A stretch of 64,000 bases of DNA from Paracoccaceae bacterium. Lineage in GTDB: Bacteria > Pseudomonadota > Alphaproteobacteria > Rhodobacterales > Rhodobacteraceae. Shown piece by piece: positions 46,905 through 58,538 of the stretch. Location of the stretch: contig JACVZW010000007.1 of NCBI GenBank assembly GCA_014654775.1, forward strand, positions 124,001 through 188,000, read 5' to 3'. The translations under genes were made by a program, and so were the position numbers. Position 1 is the first letter of the stretch, and each line of letters opens with the position of its first letter. The notes under the pieces were generated by a model. It was not told where the DNA came from, did not search any database, and saw only the letters and a list, made by a program, of their open reading frames with translations.

Positions 46905-48656
46905 ATGACAGGTCGCGCCTTCCTTGATGTTGATGCCTCGCTGACGGGCCGCCGCTGGATCGGCCCGACGGCCGAAGAGGACCGTCTGGCCGAGGCGATG
47001 GCCCAGCAGACGCGCCTGCCGCTGGCGCTCTGTCACACGCTGGTGCGCCGTGGGGTTGCACCACAGGATGCGGCGGCCTTCCTTGCCCCCGCCCTGCGCG
47101 ATCTGCTGCCCGACCCGCTCTCGCTGCGAGACATGGGGCCGGCTGCCGCCCGCTTCCTGCATGCGCTGAAGGCCCGCGAACCCATCGCCGTCTTTGCCGA
47201 TTATGACGTGGATGGTGGCACCTCTGCTGCCCTCCTTATCGTTTGGCTGCGCGCCATGGGGCATGCCGCCACGCTCTACATCCCCGACCGGATCGATGAG
47301 GGCTATGGCCCCAACGTCCCGGCGATGGAGGCCTTGGCCGACAGTCACCGCCTGATCCTTTGCGTCGATTGCGGCACGCTGTCCCATGAACCCATCGCCG
47401 CCGCTGTGGCCAAGGGGGCGGATGTCGTGGTGCTGGATCACCACTTGGGGGCCGAGACGCTGCCCCCCGCGCTGGCCGTGGTGAACCCCAACCGGCAGGA
47501 CGAGGATGGGAGCCTCGGCCATCTCTGCGCGGCCTCGGTCGTCTTTCTGATGCTGGTCGAGGCGAACCGCCAATTGCGCGCCGAAGGGGTGCAGGGGCCC
47601 GACCTGATGGCGCTGCTTGATCTGGTGGCGCTGGCCACGGTGGCCGATGTGGCCCCGCTGATCGGGGTCAACCGGGCATTGGTGCGGCAGGGGCTGAAGG
47701 TCATGGCGCGGCGCGAACGGGTGGGTCTGCGCGCGCTGGCCGATGTGGCGCGGATGGATCAGGCCCCGAACAGCTATGCGCTGGGCTTTCTGCTCGGCCC
47801 GCGCGTCAATGCGGGCGGGCGGATCGGCGCGGCGGATCTGGGCGCGCGGCTTTTGTGCTGCGAGAGCGAGGTTGAGGCGCAGGCGCTCGCCGCCCGGCTG
47901 GACGAGTTGAACACCGAACGGCGCGAAATCGAGATGCGCGTGCGCGACGCCGCCATGGCGCAGGCCGAGGCGCGGGGTCTGGATGCCCCGCTCGTCTGGG
48001 CGGCGGGCGAGGGCTGGCATCCCGGCGTGGTGGGGATCGTCGCCAGCCGGTTGAAGGAGGCCACCAACCGCCCGGCTGTGGTGATCGGGCTGGAGGGCGG
48101 GATGGGCAAGGGATCGGGCCGCTCCGTCAGCGGTGTCGATCTGGGGGCGTCGGTCCATCGCTTGGCCGCCGAAGGGCTGCTGGTCAAGGGCGGTGGGCAT
48201 CGCATGGCCGCCGGCCTGACGGTGGAGGAAGGCAAGCTGGAGGCCGCCATGGCGCGGCTGTCCGACCTGCTCGCCCGGCAGGGCGCGGGCGCAGGCGGAC
48301 CTGCCGATCTAAAGCTCGACGGTCTTCTCATGCCCTCTGCCGCCGACCGCGCGCTGGTCGAACGGCTGGAGGAGGCGGGGCCCTTCGGCGCCTCGGCCCC
48401 TGCGCCGCGCTTTGCCTTTGCCGCCATGGCGGTGCGCGCCCGCCGCGTGGGCGAAACCCATCTGCGCCTTAGCTTTGGCGATGGCGCAGGCCCGATGCTC
48501 GAGGCGATGGCTTTCGGCGCTTTCGACGGCCTGCTCGGCCCCGCGCTGATGGAGGCGGGGCATCAACGGTTCCATCTGGCGGGCAGGCTGGAACTGAACA
48601 CATGGAACGGCAGCACGAAGGTGCAGTTGCGTCTGGAAGACGCCGCCCGCGCCTGA
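46905..48656 (+). CDS. recJ: Single-stranded-DNA-specific exonuclease RecJ
   Basis: A 583-residue DHH/DHHA1 exonuclease that degrades single-stranded DNA 5' to 3' in recombination and repair. Motifs are FADYDVDGGTSAALL, LCVDCGT, LDHHLGAE (the DHH triad) and VNAGGRIGAADLG. The length is typical. It stands alone between glpX and the tRNA-Glu gene. Confidence 0.95.
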   Translation: MTGRAFLDVDASLTGRRWIGPTAEEDRLAEAMAQQTRLPLALCHTLVRRGVAPQDAAAFLAPALRDLLPDPLSLRDMGPAAARFLHALKAREPIAVFADYDVDGGTSAALLIVWLRAMGHAATLYIPDRIDEGYGPNVPAMEALADSHRLILCVDCGTLSHEPIAAAVAKGADVVVLDHHLGAETLPPALAVVNPNRQDEDGSLGHLCAASVVFLMLVEANRQLRAEGVQGPDLMALLDLVALATVADVAPLIGVNRALVRQGLKVMARRERVGLRALADVARMDQAPNSYALGFLLGPRVNAGGRIGAADLGARLLCCESEVEAQALAARLDELNTERREIEMRVRDAAMAQAEARGLDAPLVWAAGEGWHPGVVGIVASRLKEATNRPAVVIGLEGGMGKGSGRSVSGVDLGASVHRLAAEGLLVKGGGHRMAAGLTVEEGKLEAAMARLSDLLARQGAGAGGPADLKLDGLLMPSAADRALVERLEEAGPFGASAPAPRFAFAAMAVRARRVGETHLRLSFGDGAGPMLEAMAFGAFDGLLGPALMEAGHQRFHLAGRLELNTWNGSTKVQLRLEDAARA

Positions 48657-48681
48657 CACGGCGGCGGCTTCATTTTCCCTC

Positions 48682-48710
48682 TTGCACCCGCCCCGCCCCG
48701 CCATTAGACA
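48682..48710 (+). promoter_or_regulatory. Probable sigma-70 promoter of tRNA-Glu
   Basis: TTGCAC (48682-48687) and TAGACA (48705-48710) are spaced by 17 bases; a start near 48717 would sit 10 bases before the mature tRNA. Confidence 0.5.
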
Positions 48711-48726
48711 CCCCCGCACTGACTGC

Positions 48727-48801
48727 GGCCCGTTCGTCTATCGGTTAGGACACCAGGTTTTCAACCTGGGAAGAGGGGTTCGACTCCCCTACGGGCTGCC
48801 A
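48727..48801 (+). tRNA. tRNA-Glu (anticodon TTC)
   Basis: A cloverleaf is visible. The acceptor stem pairs GGCCCGT with ACGGGCT (one G-T pair), the anticodon stem pairs CCAGG with CCTGG around TTTTCAA (anticodon TTC), and the T arm reads GGGGTTCGACTCCCC. The discriminator is G and CCA is encoded. The accessory region begins within 50 bases of its 3' end, a common integration position. Confidence 0.95.
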
Positions 48802-48842
48802 CTTCCCCTCTTGCCTTCGGATTTTTCCTTCAACACGCCGCA

Positions 48843-49061
48843 TCAAGGTGACGCGGCCTTGGGTTTGGAACAACCCGTTTGAAGCCCAAGGGGCAAGCCG
48901 TGCCGGTCCAGATAGGCAAAGAACTGTACGAAGTCCCCGGGATACAGCCTGTGAAAGGCCGAGGTATCCCGGTGCTCTTCAACCAGCCGTGCAAAGGACT
49001 TGCCGGATTGCAGTTCCCTGAGTCGCAAGTTCGGCATGGCCTGCCACTGACATTTCATCAA
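48843..49061 (-). pseudogene. Probable C-terminal remnant of a polysaccharide pyruvyl transferase
   Basis: A 72-codon frame on the minus strand with GC-rich, coding-like codon use. Its last 45 residues (VEEHRDTSAFHRLYPGDFVQFFAYLDRHGLPLG) resemble the C-terminal helices of polysaccharide pyruvyl transferase-family proteins. There is no ribosome-binding site at its ATG. The N-terminal part of such a gene lies at 51293-52144 in the same direction, so this is probably the far end of that gene, separated by the AT-rich cassette. The family match is my reading of a short stretch. Confidence 0.45.
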
Positions 49062-49366
49062 GCAGCAACAAGAGCCGATTGTTGACCTACGACCTTCGGC
49101 GCAGGCTCAACAAGCGCACGGCCCGCGGAATTTTTATTGCGTGCTGCCGGACGTTCGATTGCGGTGGAAAGAAAAGCAAATGCACCGTCACAAGATAACG
49201 ATCAATTCGGTCGCCCAAAGGACTGGCAAAGCACCGCCACAAGCTACGATTAACTCACAAAGGTAGTCCTGTCCAAAGTTGCCCTCACAACAACCCTCAT
49301 GTGCTGACAAAAATCTAGAACGAAGCCTGACCCTACGCCCCCCGGGGATCACTCTACTTTTTCGCT
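49062..49366. other. Non-coding left border of the AT-rich cassette
   Basis: No convincing gene. Two imperfect direct copies of GCACCG.CACAAG..ACGAT.AA lie at 49182-49205 and 49231-49253. Composition changes from GC-rich to AT-rich here. Confidence 0.45.
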
Positions 49367-50788
49367 CTAACTCTGACTCAACACCCAAGGCCACTCATGA
49401 AATCTATTGGAAGTACTCCAATCCCTGCCATAACGCTCTTCAAGGAAGCGAGTCGGCTCTGCCGGCGCTTTTAATATCCTTCCGTAAAACTCCACCGCAG
49501 AAGGTGGATAGACAATTGAGTGATCGATCTGGCGGTAGCAAGAATTATTCTCCATCATCAAGACGAGCTTGTCCGCCTCTCTCCAGCAGATAAAGAAGTC
49601 CAAATGTCGACTGCCGAACTTGATATGAAAATTTGTCCTCGAAGGGCTGCTCCGCGTCACGTAGCCTCGCTCAGCAAGTACCGTGATAAGCGCTTGTCTC
49701 CGCGCCATTGCCTCTTCTCGTCCAAAGGAACCGTCGTAGATCAGAAAGTCAACGTCATCGTCATGAGGAATAAATCCACCATCTCGGACAGCGCCAAGGA
49801 GTGAACCGTAGCACAGCATGATTGTCAGCTCCAACTCATCGAATAGTTTGACGGCCTTGTCGATAGCCTCCAAATACTCCTCCTTTCTATCGAGTATACT
49901 GGATTTTTGAATGATGTGCTTCGAAACGACTATTGGTGCTTGGCTTCCGGTCTGCATCCGCATCAAGCGCGAAGCTTCTGCTTCGGTCCGTTCTATTGAA
50001 CTTGCAGAGGCCAGAACAGCCTTAATCGGCTTTAAGATTCTGGTTCCGACCGATGCGCGATCACCAAGAACTTTCAGAAAAATAGTGGCGCAAACTGTTA
50101 TGTGGAATTCCGTTAACTCAGGCAACTCGCCATGCAGAGGGAGAAATCTGCATAATTCAACAAAATCAAAGTCGTCGCAACTTACTTCGAACCTTCTGAT
50201 GAGCGCAGTACGAATCTGATCTGCTAGGTCCTGTGTGGCGAGCGAGGTCGACTGATCGGTCTCCACGCCTGAAATCATGACGATCTTCTGTAACGCCTCT
50301 AGCTTTCGTGTTATTGAAGTATTCTCAAAACAGAGAACTAGACTACCCTCCCACTCGACTTTACAGTTCAGAAATGCCAATCGGCTTCCATAGATATCTC
50401 TCTTACTCTTCTTTATGACTATACGGCTAATTTCACGTTCTCCGGCAAGCAAAAATCGGACGCTTGGTTCTATCTCTCGTTTGGTTTGAATGGCCTTGCC
50501 ATTGACTATCTGGCTGAGTATCTCTTCCCCGGATCTGCCTCCGAGTATACTTGATACCGAAACTGACTTTATCAAATTAGACCGATCATACTTCGTTCCA
50601 TTGGGGTCATAGAACTCTACCTCTTCGAAGCGTAGTGGCTCTTTCTGTGGAGCACGAACTGTGATTTCGATGCAGGTCGCCAACTTGTTAATCGGAATTT
50701 CGAGGCAAAAGGGATCAGACTCTCCAAAAAATCCGAAGCCGGGAAGAATTTCATCGGCAAGATCAAGAAGCATTTTCTGTGTGACCAT
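49367..50788 (-). CDS. LicD-domain protein with long unassigned N-terminal region
   Basis: A 473-residue protein. The C-terminal 170 residues are a LicD/fukutin-type nucleotidyltransferase-fold domain: LCYGSLLGAVRDGGFIPHDDDVDF at about 325-348, with the Gly-Ser and the Asp cluster (343-347) that binds metal and CDP-donor, and RFLEERYGRDWSTS near the end. Such enzymes transfer phosphocholine, glycerol phosphate or ribitol phosphate to glycans. The first 300 residues match nothing I know; residues 25-160 look beta-rich, perhaps carbohydrate-binding. Codons are AT-rich. It follows the TagD-like gene by 7 bases. Confidence 0.75.
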   Translation of the reverse strand: MVTQKMLLDLADEILPGFGFFGESDPFCLEIPINKLATCIEITVRAPQKEPLRFEEVEFYDPNGTKYDRSNLIKSVSVSSILGGRSGEEILSQIVNGKAIQTKREIEPSVRFLLAGEREISRIVIKKSKRDIYGSRLAFLNCKVEWEGSLVLCFENTSITRKLEALQKIVMISGVETDQSTSLATQDLADQIRTALIRRFEVSCDDFDFVELCRFLPLHGELPELTEFHITVCATIFLKVLGDRASVGTRILKPIKAVLASASSIERTEAEASRLMRMQTGSQAPIVVSKHIIQKSSILDRKEEYLEAIDKAVKLFDELELTIMLCYGSLLGAVRDGGFIPHDDDVDFLIYDGSFGREEAMARRQALITVLAERGYVTRSSPSRTNFHIKFGSRHLDFFICWREADKLVLMMENNSCYRQIDHSIVYPPSAVEFYGRILKAPAEPTRFLEERYGRDWSTSNRFHEWPWVLSQS

Positions 50789-50795
50789 GAATGCT

Positions 50796-51269
50796 CTACT
50801 TTCTTAAATCTTCAATGATGGACTTCACAAACTCTAGTCCATTCTGAATTTCAGATACTGTTCCAACGTTCCAGCTGCCTAGGAGCGACTTGATTTCGGT
50901 CGTCGATATTCCCTCAGTTCGCGGCAAGTAAACCACCTTGCAGCCAGTTATCTCAGTATCAAACTTTCCTTGCCAGTCATGCCCCATCACAAAGACACTT
51001 GCATTGAATCTCTCGATATCCTTGTTCTTTTGGCTCCAGTCAGTCTCCGGGAAAACTGCATCCACACACTTCATCGCCTCAACAATTCGAGCGCGGTGCT
51101 CATATGGGAAGATACTTCTCTTTCCCTTTACCGAGTTGAACTCATCTGTAGACACCCCGACGATTAACCGATCACCCAAAGCACGCGCGCGCTCTAAAAG
51201 ATTAACGTGACCAATGTGGAAAAGATCAAAAGTTCCGTAGGTTATAACGACTTGGCCTCTGCTTTTCAT
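50796..51269 (-). CDS. TagD-like CTP:glycerol-3-phosphate cytidylyltransferase
   Basis: A 157-residue cytidylyltransferase. TYGTFDLFHIGHVNLL (10-25) includes the HIGH motif and RTEGISTT (117-124) is the signature of the TagD group that makes CDP-glycerol. Close relatives make CDP-choline or CDP-ribitol, so the product is not certain. It lies just upstream of the LicD gene, which would use its product as donor. Composition is AT-rich, unlike the chromosome around it. A tail of about 25 residues follows the standard domain. Confidence 0.82.
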   Translation of the reverse strand: MKSRGQVVITYGTFDLFHIGHVNLLERARALGDRLIVGVSTDEFNSVKGKRSIFPYEHRARIVEAMKCVDAVFPETDWSQKNKDIERFNASVFVMGHDWQGKFDTEITGCKVVYLPRTEGISTTEIKSLLGSWNVGTVSEIQNGLEFVKSIIEDLRK

Positions 51270-51292
51270 CTGCGAGCCACCTCCATACCGAT

Positions 51293-52144
51293 TTAAGTAT
51301 TCAGCGACTTTGGCTGCTGCAACTCTGATGGCCCGCTTTGCGAAACCGGGCCTTGCCCTCGTTCTTCAATGCCGAAAGCGTGATCTGTTGTTCCGCCCAC
51401 AGGCGCAAAGGGCTTGGCGAGATCAGGGCGTGCTTGTCCGCGGGCAGGTCGTCGAGTTTGACGACGGGCTGAATGCTGCACGGGAGGTAATCGACGTGCG
51501 ATGATTGCCCGATTGCCGGGCGACGGAAGGGCATTGCCCCGTGCAGCCCCGGCGCCAAGCAGGAGTAAAGTGTACGAGTGACAATGCTGTGGCGAATATC
51601 CTGTATGGAAATCCGGCCGACAGCTCATATAGCAGGACTGGCAGCCGATCACTTCCACGTTGTGGATGCCCAGTTGGCGGCACAGATCGGCGGTGAAGGC
51701 CCCGCGCACGGCGATTGTCGATGTGTGGTCGGACAGCACCTTCAGAAGCCGAACCGTTGCGGGATGCACCGCAACCTCCTTCAGCGACTGGCCGATGGGC
51801 GCGCGCGATCCCAGCCCGAAGACAACGACAGGCAGGCCCAGCCGTTTGATGCGGTCGGCATGCTCTTCATGCGGTTCGATATGGCTGTTGTCCACGGCAA
51901 GGGTGGTGGCCGTCACAAAGGCCAGATGGGTCAGGCTTGCGCGGTACTCCTCGACCAACGCGTCGGTCAGCTTGCGCGGGCTGATATTGACATGTTCGCC
52001 AAGAATATGCCGCGCCGCATAGCCATGCACGTAGTTCCCGGTATTCCCGCGCGGGTTGCCCCGTCCCTCGGACGGGATACCGATGAAACCGACGCGTCCG
52101 CCTTCCGGCGGCAAGGGGCCATAAGCCGGCTGGTTCACTGACAC
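51293..52144 (-). pseudogene. Polysaccharide pyruvyl transferase-like gene with a frameshift
   Basis: The first 180 residues form a coherent Rossmann-like domain: VGFIGIPSEGRGNPRGNTGNY, LPVVVFGLGSRAPIG, IAVRGAFTADLCRQLGIHNVEVIGCQSCYMS. This fits the PS_pyruv_trans family (ketal pyruvate addition to exported glycans). After about base 51600 the nominal frame becomes Arg/Pro/Gly-rich, while the +1 frame down to 51301 has GC-rich third positions (LDDLPADKHALISPSPLRLW). A single indel between about 51590 and 51630 would join them. The 3' end stops where the AT-rich cassette begins. Confidence 0.6.
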
Positions 52145-52231
52145 GCGATCACTCCCACACTCGTTACAGGCGGCATAAAGGCACAGCGCTTCCGAAGCGT
52201 CAATTCGCCTCGATCCCGGCGCGCGCGGGGC

Positions 52232-52639
52232 TCAGGCGGGGATCACCGCCGTCGCCTCGATCTCCACTTTCGCGCGGTCCTCGACCAGCGCCACCACCTG
52301 CACCAGCGCCATAGCCGGGTAATGCCGCCCGATCACCACCTTGTAGGCGCGCCCAAGTTCCTTCAACGACCCCAGATACTCCCGCTTGTCGGTCACATAC
52401 CATGTCAGCCGCACCAGATGCTCTGGCCGCGCGCCCGCACAGGCCAGCACCTCGACGATCGACCGCAGCGCCTGTTCGGCCTGCCCTGTGAAATCATCCG
52501 TCTCAAAGACCTGATCGGCATTCCAGCCGATGATCCCCCCGGTGAACACCATCCGCCCCGTCGCCGCGACGCCATTGGAATAGCCGATGGCGGGTTTCCA
52601 ATGGGCGGGATGCAGGAATTCCAAGCCTGTCTCGGTCAT
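52232..52639 (-). CDS. RidA-family protein
   Basis: A 135-residue YjgF/YER057c/UK114 protein with FTGGIIGWNAD, ALRSIVEVLACAGARPEHLVRLTWYV and a conserved C-terminal VEIEATAVIPA. RidA proteins hydrolyse reactive enamines and imines. Its ATG overlaps the thioesterase stop by 4 bases. In this cluster it could clear the amino group of the intermediate from anthraniloyl-CoA, as an enamine; the link is inferred. Confidence 0.88.
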   Translation of the reverse strand: MTETGLEFLHPAHWKPAIGYSNGVAATGRMVFTGGIIGWNADQVFETDDFTGQAEQALRSIVEVLACAGARPEHLVRLTWYVTDKREYLGSLKELGRAYKVVIGRHYPAMALVQVVALVEDRAKVEIEATAVIPA

Positions 52640-53046
52640 GCGCCTCTCTCCTCCTGCGACACCAGCGCCGCCCGCACCCGGTCGGGCCAGCGCGCGGGCC
52701 GCCCCTCGGGTGACAGCCAAACCAGCACCAGCCTCGCCGTCACCCGCAACTCCTCGCCGCAGCGCGCCTCCTGCCGGATCGTCACCGAAGATCCGCCGAC
52801 CCGCTCGACCACCAGCGTCCAGTCCAGCACCTCGCCCAGACGCGACGGCGCGCGGAAATCTGTCTCCAGCCGTGCTGTGGGCACGCCGATCCCGTCGGCC
52901 ATCATGGCGTGGTAGGAATAGCCCACCACCTCGCGGAAGAAATTCTCGCAGACCGAATTGGTCATCTCGAAATAGCGGGGATAGAAGACGATCCCCGCCG
53001 GGTCGCAATGGTTGAACTCCACCCGGATGCTGCGGTGATAGCTCAT
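52636..53046 (-). CDS. Acyl-CoA thioesterase (4-hydroxybenzoyl-CoA type)
   Basis: A 136-residue hotdog-fold protein. [20 protein letters not shown] is the classic active-site segment with catalytic Asp of 4-hydroxybenzoyl-CoA-type thioesterases. It overlaps the acyl-CoA dehydrogenase stop and the RidA start by 4 bases each. It probably rescues CoA from dead-end aromatic thioesters of the pathway. Confidence 0.88.
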
Positions 53047-54179
53047 CCCAGCACGCTCCGCGCAATCACCACCCGCTGCACATCGGACGCACCTTCATAG
53101 ATGCGCAGGGCCCGGATCTCGCGATACAGGCTTTCCACCACAGACCCGTGGCGCACCCCGTCGCCACCGTGCAGTTGCACCGCCATGTCGATCACCTCCT
53201 GCGCGGCCTCGGTGGCGTAAAGCTTGGCCATCGCCGCCTCGCGCGTGACGCGCGCAGCGCCGTTGTCCTTCGTCCATGCCGCGCGATAGACCAGCAGCGC
53301 AGCCGCATCGATCTTCAGCGCCATGTCGGCCAGATGGCCCTGCACCATCTGCAATCCGGCCAAAGGCTCCCCCTGTATCCGCCGCGCCTTCACGCGCGCC
53401 AGCGCCTCGTCCAGCGCCCGCCGCGCAAAGCCCAGCGCCGCCGCACCGACGGTGGACCGGAACACGTCCAGCACCGACATAGCGATCTTGAACCCCTCGC
53501 CCGGTGCGCCGATCAGCGCAGCCTCCGGCAACACCATCCCCGTCATCCGCAACGTGGCCAAAGGATGCGGTGCGATCACCTCCAGCCGTTCCGCCACCTC
53601 CAGCCCCGCCACATCAGCAGGCATCAGGAAGGCCGACAGGCCTTTCGCGCCGGGTGCCTCGCCCGTCCGGGCGAACAGCACATGGATATCCGCGATCCCG
53701 CCATTGGAAATCCACGTCTTCTCCCCCTCGATCAGCCAACCACCCTGCACCCGCATCGCGGTTGTCGCCGTCGCCGCCACGTCGGACCCCGATCCCGGCT
53801 CGGTCAGGGCAAAGGCCGCAATGGCCTCGCCCGCCCGCGTCTTCTCCAGCCATGCTTTCTGCGCGGGCGTGCCGAACAGGCTCACCGCCCCCATGCCAAG
53901 GCCCTGCATGGCAAAGGCGAAATCGGCCAGCCCGTCATGCCGCGCCAGCGTCTCGCGGATCAGGCAGAGCGTGCGGACATCCAACCGCTCCCCTTCGCCC
54001 GCACCGCTGTGCCGCAGCCAGCCGCCGTCGCCCAGCATCTGCACCAAGGCGCGGCAGGCGGCATCCACATCCCCGTGATCCACCGGCAGATGGGCCACAC
54101 ACCACGCCTCCAGCGCCGCCGCCAGTTCGCGGTGACGCGCCTCGAAAAAGGGCCAGTCCAGAAAGCTTTGATCGCTCAT
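53043..54179 (-). CDS. Acyl-CoA dehydrogenase
   Basis: A 378-residue flavoprotein of the acyl-CoA dehydrogenase family. [16 protein letters not shown] and [14 protein letters not shown] bind FAD and substrate; the catalytic base is Glu in [13 protein letters not shown]. In this operon it could oxidise a ring-derived dicarboxyl or cyclic acyl-CoA. The start lies just after a GAGTATTT repeat at 54185-54206; no good ribosome-binding site is visible, so the start is less certain. The stop overlaps the thioesterase ATG. Confidence 0.9.
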
Positions 54180-54184
54180 GTCAT

Positions 54185-54206
54185 CTTCATCTTGGCAAAA
54201 ATACTC
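54185..54206 (-). repeat. GAGTATTT-CCAAGATGAAG element directly before the dehydrogenase start
   Basis: The minus-strand reading GAGTATTTTTGCCAAGATGAAG ends 5 bases before the acyl-CoA dehydrogenase ATG. It is a single copy and may form part of its translation leader. Confidence 0.7.
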
Positions 54207-54257
54207 TCAGGGGGTGAGGAGCGCAGCGACGAGGGGGCGCGAGCGCCCCCTGCGACG

Positions 54258-55070
54258 TCAGTCCCCCCGAAACACCGGCGTCTCCTTGGCGACAAAGGCC
54301 CGATAGGCCCGTTCGAAATCGCGGGTCTGCATGCAGATCGCCTGCGCCTGCGCCTCGGCCTCGATCGCTTGTTCCAGCCCCATGTTCCATTCCTGATTGA
54401 GCTGGGTCTTCGTCATCCCATGGGCGAAGGTCGGCCCCGCTGCCAAGGCCCGCGCAAGGTCCATCGCCGCCGCCTCCAGCGCCTCCGGGGCGTGCAGCGC
54501 GTTCCAAAAGCCCCAGCGTTCACCCTCTTCAGCCCGCATGACCCGACCGGTATAGAGGAGTTCCGCCGCCCGCCCTTGCCCGATGATCCGGGGCAGCATG
54601 GCGCAGGCCCCCATGTCGCAGCCCGCCAGCCCCACACGGGTAAACAGGAAGGCGCATTTCGCCCCCGGTGTGGCCAGCCGCAGGTCGGACGCCATCGCCA
54701 TGATCGCCCCCGCCCCCACACAGACACCATCCACCGCCGCAATCACGGGCTTGCCGCAGCCAATCATGGCCTTGACCAGGTCGCCGGTCATGCGGGTGAA
54801 GGCGAGAAGTTCCTTCATCTCCATCCCCACCAGCGGACCGATGATGTCATGCACATCGCCGCCCGAACAGAAATTCCCCCCGTTCGAGGCGATCACCGCC
54901 ACATCCACATCCGTGGCATAGGGCAGCGCGCGGAAGGTATCCCGCAACTCGGCATAGGACTCGCAGGTCAGCGGGTTCTTCCGCTCGGGCCGGTTCAGCC
55001 GGATCACGGCGACCCGGTCCACCACCTCCCACAGGAAATGTTCGGGCCGCAGCCCCGCCATCGCGCCCAT
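54258..55070 (-). CDS. Enoyl-CoA hydratase/isomerase family protein
   Basis: A 270-residue crotonase-fold protein: [26 protein letters not shown] (oxyanion loop) and [19 protein letters not shown]. Residues for hydration (Glu in the 110-140 region) are unclear. It is one of two paralogues in the cluster and may act as a hydratase or ring-cleaving hydrolase. ATG 55070 overlaps the MarR stop (TGATG); a GTG at 55073 is possible. Confidence 0.88.
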
Positions 55071-55516
55071 CACGCCCCCATCCGTTTCAAGATCTCGGTC
55101 AACGCCTCCAGATCGGCCTCCGACAGCCCGGCGAACATCCGCGCCACTTCCGCCTCATGCCCCGCCGCCAGCACTTCGAATTGCTGAAACCCCGCCGCCG
55201 TCAGCGCGACAAAGACCGTGCGCCGGTCCGTCTCTGATGGCGTGCGCCGCACCAGACCATCCGTCTCCAACCGATCCACCACCGTCGTCGCATTGCCGTT
55301 CGACACCAGCAGCATCCGGCTGAGCTCGCTCATCGTCACGCCCTCGCGCCGACGATAAAGCGCGGCCATCACGTCGAACCGCGGCAGGGTCGTGCCATGC
55401 TGCACCCGCAGGAATTCGCGCAACTCGCCCTCCGCCGCGCGGGTGACGCCCAGCAGCCGGATCCACATCTTCAACCGCCGCTTCGAAAGCGCGTCTTGGG
55501 TCACGGAACCACTCAC
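55070..55516 (-). CDS. MarR-family transcriptional regulator
   Basis: A 148-residue MarR-type winged-helix protein. The wing segment is [18 protein letters not shown] and the recognition helix [21 protein letters not shown]. It is translationally coupled to the SDR gene upstream (GTGA overlap at 55513-55516) and the enoyl-CoA hydratase downstream. It likely represses this aromatic-degradation cluster in the absence of an acyl-CoA ligand, with a possible operator at 58605. Confidence 0.88.
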
Positions 55517-56256
55517 ACCTCGCCCCCCGAAATCACGATCCCCTGCCCGTTCACACCTGCCGCCCCGTCCGCACACAGCCACAGCGCCGCCGAGGTCACC
55601 TCGTCAGGCCGGTAAAGCCGCCCCTGAGGCGACATCCCCTCCAACGTCGCCCGCGCCTCTGCCGCCGTCCGGCCCGTCTTTTCCGAAATCACCCGGATCG
55701 ACTGCTCCGTCATCTCAGTGTCCAGAAAACCGGGGCAGATCGCATTGGCGGTCACCGACCCCTTCGCCACCTCCAGCGCCACCGACCGCACCAAGCCCAT
55801 CACCCCATGCTTGGCCGCCGCATAGGGGGCCACCTTGGCATAGCCTTTCACCCCGGCGGTCGAGGCCACGGCGATCAGCCGCCCCCAACCATCGAACTGC
55901 CGCAGCCCTTCGCGGAAGGTCAGGAAGACCCCCGTCAGGTTCACCGCAATCATCGCGTTCCACTGCGCAAGGCTCGTCTTGGCCAGAACCCCGCTGTCCG
56001 CCGCGCCCGCATTGGCGATGACCACATCCACCCGCCCCGCCTGCGCGAACAGCGCCTGAACGGAGGCCTCTTCCGTCACATCACATGGCAGCGCGCGGAT
56101 GGCCGGATGCCCCGCCGCGACGGCCTCCAGCGCCGCGACCCGCCGCCCGCAGATCACCACCTCGGCCGCGCCCGCCCGGGCAAAACCCAGCGCAAGGTCC
56201 GCCCCCGCGCCCGACCCGCCGCCGGTGACCAGAACCCGCCGCCCCGCAACACTCAT
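55513..56256 (-). CDS. SDR-family oxidoreductase
   Basis: A 247-residue short-chain dehydrogenase. [18 protein letters not shown] binds the cofactor, NAGAADSG follows, and the catalytic residues lie in [22 protein letters not shown] (Ser, Tyr, Lys). It may oxidise a 3-hydroxyacyl-CoA. ATG 56256 overlaps the monooxygenase stop (ATGA). The upstream frame to 56376 is ignored. Confidence 0.9.
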
Positions 56257-58538
56257 GCCCGGATCACCTCGACCGCCCTCTGTTGCAACCGCCGCAACTG
56301 GTCGCGCCCTGCCAGATAGGGCAGCGGCCAGTCCGTCGCAGCATCCCCCATCGCCACCGCCGCATGCAATGTCCAATAGGGATTGGCCAGATGCGGCCGC
56401 GCCAGACAGACCAGATCGGCCCGCCCCGCCAGCAGGATGGAATTGACGTGATCGGGTTCCGTGATATTGCCCACCGCCATCGTGGCCAGCCCCGCCTCGT
56501 TGCGGATGCGGTCCGAAAACGGCGTCTGGAACATCCGCCCATAGACGGGCCGCGCCTCGACCGAGGTCTGCCCCGCGCTGACGTCGATGATATCCGCCCC
56601 CGCGCCTGCGAACATCCGCGCGATCTGCACCGCCTCATCCGGCGTCACGCCCTCATCCCCCACCCAGTCGGTGGCCGAGATGCGCACCGACAGCGGCTTC
56701 TCCTCGCCCCAAGCCGCGCGCATTGCCCGCAGCACCTCCAAGGGCCAGCGCATCCGGTTCTCCAGCGACCCGCCATACTCATCCGTCCGCCGGTTCGACA
56801 GCGGGCTGATGAAGGACGACACCAGATAGCCATGCGCCGCGTGCAATTCGACCATGTCGAACCCCACCCGCTTCGCCATCTCCGTCGCCTTGACGAACTC
56901 CCCCGTCACCGCCTCCATATCCGCCCGCGTCATCTCGCGCGGAACGGCATTGCGCGCCGACCATGGCAGGGCCGAGGGCGCGATGATTTCCCAATTCCCC
57001 GCAGGCAAAGGCGCGTCACCATCCTCCCAACCCACCTGCGTCGAAGCCTTCCGCCCCGCATGGCCGATCTGGCAGCAGATCTTCGCCGCCGTCTCGGCAT
57101 GGACGAAATCGACCACCCGCTTCCACGCCGCCTCATGTTCTGGCGCATAAAGCCCGGGGCAGCCCGGCGTGATCCGGCCCTGCGCCGAGGTGCAGGTCAT
57201 TTCGGTATAGACCAGCCCCGCGCCGCCCTTGGCACGTTCTCCGTAATGCACCAGATGCCAGTCGGTCGGGCAGCCCTCCACCGCCTTGTACTGCGCCATC
57301 GGCGACACCACGATCCGGTTCTGCAACACCATGTCGCGCAGCCGGAAGGGCGCGAACATCGGCGCGCGGCCCTCTTGCCCACCCGCCTGCGCCTGAAACC
57401 AATCCTCCGTCCGCCGCAGCCACGCCGGATCGCGCAGGCGCAGGTTCTCATGGCTGATCCGCTGGCTGCGCGTCAGCAGCGAATAGGCGAACTGCTCCGG
57501 CGGCAGGTCCAGATAGCGCTCCACCTGCTCGAACCATTCCAGACTGTTCCGCGCTGCCGATTGCAGGCGCAGCACCTCCACCCGCCGCTCGTCCTGATAG
57601 CGGGCAAAGGCCGCCTCCAGCGTCGGCTCCGAATGCAGATACTCGGCCAGCGCAATCGCGCTGTCGAAAGCCAGCCGCGTGCCCGACCCGATGGAGAAAT
57701 GCCCCGTCGCCGCCGCATCCCCCATCAGGACGACATTCTCATGATACCACGTCCCGCAGATGACCCGGGGGAAGTTCATCCACACCGCCGACCCGCGCAG
57801 ATGCGCGGCATTCGACATCAGATCATGCCCGCCCAGATGCGCGGCAAAGATCTTCCGGCAGGTTTCCACCGTGTCTTCCTTGGACATCTCGGCAAAGCCC
57901 CAAGCGTCCCATGTCTCCTGCGCGCATTCCACGATGAAGGTCGCGGTCTTGTCGTCGAACTGGTAGGCATGGGCCCAGACCCAGCCATGCGCCGTCTTCT
58001 CGAAGATGAATGTGAAGGCATCATCGAACTTCTGATGCGTGCCCAGCCAAACGAACTTGCACAGACGCATGTCGATATCGGGCTGGAACACCGTCTCATA
58101 TTCCCGCCGAACGGCCGAGTTGATCCCGTCCGAGGCAACGACGATGTCATACTCCGTCCGGTATTCCTCCGCCGTCTTGAACTCCGTCTCAAAGCGCAGA
58201 TCGACACCCAATTCGCGCGCCCGCGCCTGCAGCAGGATCAGCATCTGTTTCCTGCCGATCCCGGCAAAACCATGCCCGCCCGACACGGTGCGCACCCCGT
58301 CATGCACCACGGCGATGTCGTCCCAATAGGCAAAGTGGTCCCGGATCGCCTGCGTCGAAACAGGATCGTTCCGCGCCATCCGCCCCAGCGCATCATCCGA
58401 CAGAACCACGCCCCAACCAAAGGTGTCGTTGGCGCGGTTCCGCTCCAGCACCGTCACCTCGTGCCCCGGATCGCGCAGCTTCATCGAGATGGCGAAATAG
58501 AGTCCGGCAGGGCCACCCCCGAGGCAGAGAATCTTCAT
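56253..58538 (-). CDS. Bifunctional anthraniloyl/salicylyl-CoA monooxygenase-reductase
   Basis: A 761-residue fusion. The N-terminal flavin monooxygenase ([18 protein letters not shown], about 4-22; [20 protein letters not shown]) and the C-terminal OYE-family reductase (about 395-761, [47 protein letters not shown]) match 2-aminobenzoyl-CoA monooxygenase/reductase. That enzyme both hydroxylates and dearomatises the ring of anthraniloyl-CoA. It heads the minus-strand operon; its ATG has AGGGGAT upstream. Salicylyl-CoA is an alternative substrate. The CoA ligase is not in the window. Confidence 0.88.

Follow-up and report, generated by a model that had tools for sequence, protein, structure and literature searches.

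A tagD-licD gene pair inside a broken polysaccharide pyruvyl transferase gene at a variable tRNA-Glu slot of a Paracoccaceae bacterium

We analyzed a 64,000-nucleotide stretch of DNA (the window; positions 124,001 to 188,000 of contig JACVZW010000007.1, assembly GCA_014654775.1) from a Paracoccaceae bacterium, in which a polysaccharide pyruvyl transferase (PPT) gene is split and a two-gene cassette, tagD-licD, lies between its pieces. The explanation that we favor, with a probability of about 0.72, is that a dead PPT mosaic in the slot between a tRNA-Glu gene and ridA houses an imported-looking tagD-licD pair, which likely serves the addition of glycerol-phosphate to a glycan.

Results

An earlier note on this DNA, made from the sequence alone, had described four minus-strand frames, namely 51293-52144 (283 aa), tagD, licD and 48843-49061 (72 aa), with an AT-rich gene pair among them and tRNA-Glu as their neighbor. 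All of these were present (Table 1), and the GC content was measured to drop from ~0.65 to 0.45-0.50 over tagD and licD, with a third-position GC of 0.51 and 0.50 in the pair versus 0.83 in recJ. The cassette is oriented in the same way as the old PPT gene; tagD ends 7 nt upstream of licD, and GGAGG stands just before the tagD ATG.

When the intact PPT protein of the genus relative G002 was used as a tblastn query, the PPT gene of the window was recovered as three collinear, non-overlapping pieces in three different frames, corresponding to G002 residues 7-179 (N-terminal piece), 189-276 (middle piece, aligned over 88 residues) and ~325-390 (C-terminal piece, 67 aligned columns), and the scores of the middle and C-terminal pieces were each reached by 0 of 2000 shuffles. 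The reading of 48843-49061 as a PPT C-terminus was thus borne out, as this frame aligned to the proteins of both G002 (48%) and a second relative, G009 (33 of 66 residues identical); by itself the 72-aa frame matched no Pfam family, and its being a chance frame was rejected by the tblastn E value (6e-14) and by the shuffles. The other end of the gene had been read as PPT N-terminal coding from 52144 to about 51300, and this holds down to ~51608 only. Since PPT similarity resumes at ~51600-51337 in a different frame, the 283-aa frame ends in ~100 residues of out-of-frame readthrough. Residues 277-324 had no match anywhere in 48601-52300, so that ~48 codons are gone. They are the segment in which G002 and G009 are most alike (35 of 48 residues identical, versus 59%, 43% and 56% identity in the N-terminal, middle and C-terminal parts, respectively) and include the conserved GTRFHGN stretch. 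The possibility that the missing codons are hidden in the spacer downstream of licD was rejected, as no match was found there, and the possibility that this spacer is the end of a repeated insertion sequence was rejected by its single copy in the genome. With its longest piece, the 283-aa frame, at 21.8 bits against the PF04230 cut-off of 25.3, a broken frame and residues 277-324 lost, the window's own PPT fails as a functional member of the family, and no other PPT was detected by a search of its genome. The intact proteins of G002 and G009 scored 58.0 and 66.8 bits, respectively.

The pieces were then compared in an alignment with seven intact PPT homologues (those of G002 and G009 and those from 5 of the 23 genomes, the window's own not counted, in which a match was found). 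The G046 sequence in this alignment includes a long non-homologous readthrough that has no bearing on the counts given here. The identity of the window to G002/G009 was 82/62% in the N-terminal piece, 36/34% in the middle and 48/50% in the C-terminal piece, and blastn identity to both relatives stopped at 51607. At positions where G002 and G009 are identical, the window agreed at 96/101 in the N-terminal piece, 17/38 in the middle and 23/37 in the C-terminal piece; at positions where they differ, it followed G002 at 45/71 in the N-terminal piece versus 24/79 in the other two taken together (permutation p 6e-5; contrast reached by 5/149 circular shifts). The dS of the flanking genes was 0.39-0.60, while that of the N-terminal piece was 0.92 and 0.97; the PPT alleles therefore differ more than their surroundings. 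Taken together, the PPT pieces look like a recombination mosaic between alleles. An unlikely alternative, and the simplest history, is a clean one-step insertion of tagD-licD into a single G002-like PPT gene, followed by decay of the downstream pieces; it has in its favor that, at the site where the relatives have an intact gene, the pieces follow one another in order and complement each other. Such decay should strike the N-terminal piece too, yet its dN/dS was 0.14 to G002 (0.33 to G009), with the 96 of 101 conserved residues kept. Moreover, the proportional synonymous difference was raised in three of the four comparisons downstream (middle 0.73 and C-terminal 0.72 to G002, C-terminal 0.75 to G009; middle 0.64 to G009) relative to the N-terminal piece (0.53 to G002 and 0.54 to G009); between G002 and G009 themselves it was 0.65, 0.58 and 0.67 for the N-terminal, middle and C-terminal parts. 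A clean insertion also has to account for the loss of 48 codons and of ~20 nt at the junction of the first two pieces. The claim that a cassette had split an older PPT gene therefore stands in part: a glycan-phosphate cassette does lie inside a disrupted PPT gene whose pieces are collinear and complementary, but a simple split was not upheld, because the affinities of the pieces differ, the reading frame shifts and 48 codons have disappeared, and recombination or decay therefore also played a part.

To place the locus among relatives, a genus set of 19 genomes including the window's own was used, 17 of which are at least 90% complete. Besides the window's genome, a PPT match was found in G002 and G009 only, 16 of the 19 genomes being without one. 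As the earlier note had envisaged, both relatives carry an uninterrupted PPT gene directly after the same tRNA-Glu, and they also have the most window-like recJ (96% in G002 and 94% in G009; 90% in the next relative). Among the loci of the 18 relatives, tRNA-Glu was present beside recJ in 17, one of these being cut by the contig end. The stretch beyond the tRNA contained this PPT in 2 loci and an AMP-binding ligase in 4 (Pfam-checked in one of the four). Neither was present in the stretch covered for the other 12, of which one (L078) ends inside the tRNA and another (L077) spans ~3.5 kb with the tRNA unmatched. Even leaving the cassette aside, the contents of this slot thus vary. In G018, G001 and G017 the ligase fills the space between tRNA-Glu and ridA. 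Two outcomes had been named in advance as speaking against a split gene, and neither was seen: the C-terminal frame aligns to PPT, and the order of the cassette with intact separate genes occurred in none of the 18 loci. The 3' flank of tRNA-Glu is apparently an integration site in this genus.

The first cassette gene encodes a cytidylyltransferase (Pfam domain match) whose best PDB matches were the glycerol-3-phosphate cytidylyltransferases 2b7l (5.1e-46) and 1coz (2.8e-45), followed by an ethanolamine-phosphate enzyme (9.8e-24) and choline-phosphate enzymes (2.5e-7 or weaker). It is the single TagD-like gene found in the genome. The protein encoded by licD, the only LicD match in the genome, exceeded the gathering cut-off of PF04991 (22.6 bits) over profile positions 4-36 only, and is made up of a beta-rich N-terminal part, a helical middle and a C-terminal FKRP-like nucleotidyltransferase domain. 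It matched FKRP (human fukutin-related protein) by sequence at 2.4e-6 alone and at 1.4e-12 with the A3 profile. In this alignment D343, D345, D347 and D397 correspond to FKRP Asp360, Asp362, Asp364 and Asp416 (FKRP numbers being chain position + 40, derived from the construct in PMC6965139), so that all four catalytic aspartates are in place; that source describes these residues as required for metal binding and activity. The predicted structure of LicD (mean pLDDT 88) was used for a fold search in which the 13 best PDB matches were all FKRP chains (E 2.6e-8 to 1.9e-7), with alignments of 160-168 columns in 12 of the 13 and of 255 columns with a poor root-mean-square deviation in one. This likeness covers the catalytic domain only, with a TM score of 0.26-0.30 over the whole chain. 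In the N-terminal part the A3 profile weakly touched FBP32 (E 0.0025), which we take to be a lectin. A NedA-like galactose-binding domain was found in a related protein (L115; 35.3 bits versus a cut-off of 27.8), L113 being far below this cut-off and the LicD of the window having no match; we regard a possible glycan-binding N-terminus of the LicD group as a lead, not a result.

Two alternatives concern what the cassette does. It is quite improbable that it makes another decoration, such as ribitol-phosphate or phosphocholine/phosphoethanolamine, as might be suggested by the use of CDP-ribitol by FKRP (PMC6965139) and by the best NCBIfam match of LicD, a cholinephosphotransferase model that it reached with 51.3 bits, far under the cut-off of 225; against this, the paired cytidylyltransferase is nearest to the glycerol-3-phosphate enzymes (E ~1e-45 versus 9.8e-24 and 2.5e-7 or weaker). 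Still less probable is that the cassette has itself ceased to function and is carried along as a remnant in a locus that is dying. The host PPT gene is dead, and a homologous licD in Paracoccus cavernae is broken into several frames; here, both frames are open over their full length, the catalytic residues are in place and the ribosome-binding-like GGAGG precedes tagD. Overall, by analogy, the tagD-licD pair likely provides for both CDP-glycerol synthesis and the attachment of glycerol-phosphate to a glycan.

Genome contigs were scanned with a two-member LicD alignment and two peptide patterns, a scan that was not exhaustive. Here, 146 stretches fit a pattern and 25 loci were confirmed, 10 of which had a TagD match in the flanks examined. 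In six loci (L110-L115) the LicD match spanned the protein (27-40% identity in the best segment), and in all six tagD was adjacent on the same strand, in the order tagD-licD as in the window in four and licD-tagD in the two gammaproteobacterial pairs (Pseudomonas, Idiomarina). The hosts were Rhodobacteraceae GH2-2, Phaeobacter sp., Litoreibacter halocynthiae, Paracoccus cavernae, Pseudomonas ovata and Idiomarina sp. These pairs have surroundings unlike those in the window, and in the flanks examined nothing matched the G002 PPT; some appear to lie among glycosyltransferase or sugar-nucleotide genes (e.g., L112 and L113), as we judge from their open reading frames. When 390 genomes were drawn from the order, a LicD match was found in 36 including the window's own, and besides the latter only G423, which is probably the same genome as L110, had a protein-spanning match, again with tagD beside it. 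Close kin of the cassette in mobile-element collections were sought and rejected, LicD being without a match in 72,556 plasmid and 50,697 phage records; in viral contigs 2 stretches fit a pattern and 0 were confirmed. No recombinase was found among the six frames of the locus scanned against Pfam, and the cassette did not qualify as a transposon or integrative element, its edge repeats not clearly exceeding chance.

Table 1. Features of the locus (positions in the window)
Feature	Position	Strand	Remarks
tRNA-Glu (ttc)	48727-48801	+	ARAGORN; conserved left edge of variable slot
PPT C-terminal remnant, ~G002 residues 325-390	48846-49052	-	tblastn 48%, E 6e-14; shuffles 0/2000
314-bp spacer downstream of licD	49053-49366	-	GC ~0.53; single genome copy; no match to missing PPT codons
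licD, 473-aa LicD-family transferase	49367-50788	-	PF04991 47.6 bits; FKRP likeness by sequence and fold
tagD-like glycerol-3-phosphate cytidylyltransferase, 157 aa	50796-51269	-	PDB matches 2b7l, 1coz; TIGR01518 162.4 bits
PPT middle remnant, G002 residues 189-276	51337-51600	-	tblastn 36%, E 2e-11; out of frame with N-terminal piece
Junction, 7 nt versus 27 nt in G002 (residues 180-188)	51601-51607	-	Frame change; end of blastn identity
PPT N-terminal remnant, 179 codons	51608-52144	-	82% identity to G002; PF04230 21.8 bits, under cut-off

Several further observations were made at the slot and at the related pairs. A phage-integrase gene lies a few nt from tRNA-Glu on its 3' flank in G010 (L080 1943-3043), a recombinase gene and a DNA methylase gene lie between tRNA-Glu and the ligase in G007 (L066), and in G011 the same tRNA-Glu is followed at ~5 kb by a different LicD gene (113.9 bits; L075 7251-8357). 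At 52232-58538 the window carries a cluster of RidA-like, thioesterase, acyl-CoA dehydrogenase, enoyl-CoA hydratase and SDR genes and a gene for a 761-aa FAD/FMN fusion protein, presumably an aminobenzoyl-CoA route; the AMP-binding ligase of G018, G001 and G017 was not found in the 64-kb window or in 17-19 kb of G002 and G009, the remainders of these genomes not having been searched. In Litoreibacter halocynthiae (L112 6929-9217) the LicD homologue is fused to a glycerophosphodiester phosphodiesterase (GDPD) domain (35.1 bits versus a cut-off of 23.6), which combines a transferase and a possible eraser in one protein. In Paracoccus cavernae (L114 7001-8393) the licD of the pair lies in more than one frame, owing either to a broken gene or to a sequencing error. 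A related protein (38% identity over 265 aa), which we take to be acyltransferase-like, is encoded beside two otherwise distant tagD-licD pairs (L113 9110-9904 and L114 8464-9417), with no match in the window or in the other 23 of the 25 confirmed loci.

Discussion

CDP-glycerol synthesis coupled to LicD-type glycerol-phosphate transfer is experimentally known from Cps7B and Cps7C of Actinobacillus pleuropneumoniae serotype 7: according to PMC11666461, Cps7B supplies CDP-glycerol, and Cps7C, a LicD-family protein with a site like that of FKRP, acts as a glycerol-3-phosphate polymerase. The window resembles this system in combining a glycerol-3-phosphate cytidylyltransferase with a LicD protein that has an FKRP-like domain and the catalytic Asp residues. 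As described in the same source, Cps7C elongates a glycerol-phosphate that is already present, carries a TPR domain at its N-terminus and belongs to a capsule cluster with the polymerase Cps7D. In contrast, the N-terminal part of the window's LicD is beta-rich, and no PF04464 (TagB/TagF) enzyme was detected by a search of its genome. In Lactococcus, a TagD1-like/LicD association is tied to glycerol-phosphate on a cell-wall polysaccharide (PMC8327497), which is a likeness in the pairing of cytidylyltransferase and LicD; there, the genes belong to a Gram-positive cell-wall polysaccharide locus, whereas in the window they form a bare two-gene unit inside another gene in Rhodobacterales. Human FKRP shares the related catalytic domain and the four catalytic Asp residues; it differs in that CDP-ribitol is its substrate and that it possesses a zinc finger loop (PMC6965139). 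No description of tagD-licD inside a PPT gene was found in the titles and abstract openings of the open-access papers returned by the literature searches.

We suggest the following history. A PPT gene would have been present in the tRNA-Glu-ridA slot of the common ancestor shared with G002 and G009, as its presence in these three genomes only implies. The N-terminal 179 codons may derive from a G002-like allele. What follows after a frameshift would be a portion of a third PPT allele of greater divergence; 48 of its codons were lost, and their place is now taken by a tagD-licD unit that is AT-rich and probably imported. Either insertion into the diverged allele preceded allelic recombination, or the order was the reverse. 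It is highly improbable that two PPT genes once flanked the cassette (PPT-tagD-licD-PPT) and were each truncated without any gene being split, for although the N-terminal piece does differ in affinity from the other two, the pieces have no protein overlap, stand in the right order and fill the one-gene slot of the relatives, and the middle and C-terminal pieces, although separated by the cassette, both lie at much the same distance from G002 as from G009. Transcription of the cassette may come from the old PPT or ridA promoter; a promoter and terminator scan of the locus returned fewer sites than the shuffle means. TagD would most likely convert CTP and sn-glycerol-3-phosphate to CDP-glycerol, from which LicD would most likely place glycerol-phosphate on a surface-glycan hydroxyl by a metal-dependent mechanism of the FKRP/Cps7C type. 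Because no intact PPT was detected and the CDP-glycerol/LicD pair looks complete, it is plausible that pyruvylation was replaced by a glycerol-phosphate decoration.

Several points weigh against this account of a PPT mosaic with an imported glycerol-phosphate cassette. Even between G002 and G009 the identity is 59% in the N-terminal part but 43% in the middle, and the mosaic pattern could in part reflect unequal decay or a faster-evolving C-terminal half. The support from the circular-shift control, in which autocorrelation is preserved, is weaker than that from the permutation test, and the synonymous difference of the middle piece to G009 is little above that of the N-terminal piece. The cytidylyltransferase reached 162.4 bits (162.6 in the genome search) against the TIGR01518 equivalog cut-off of 165.4, 3 bits short, and for this reason the protein is named TagD-like. 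The cassette edges showed no target-site duplication and neither a transposase nor an integrase, and the edge repeats are short, the best (11/13 nt) being reached by 26/500 shuffles.

A bolder proposal, which we consider very doubtful, is that tagD-licD is a portable module spreading among Proteobacteria, perhaps with a glycan-binding N-terminal domain of its own, and fixed where a rival glycan-modifying gene is destroyed. If this were true, one recombination at the tRNA-Glu slot would remove pyruvylation and add glycerol-phosphate, so that the surface or a phage receptor would be flipped in a single step. As it stands, each part of the locus is of a known kind, and the locus is a tidy case of turnover among surface genes, not a new system or mechanism. 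With relatives that have the gene intact at the same site for comparison, it documents how one surface-glycan modification gene was lost and another gained at a tRNA-linked variable slot, and shows that a CDP-glycerol synthetase travels with a LicD-type transferase in Rhodobacterales and in some gammaproteobacteria. The LicD group, with its possible galactose-binding-like N-terminal domain, offers a testable bacterial relative of FKRP.

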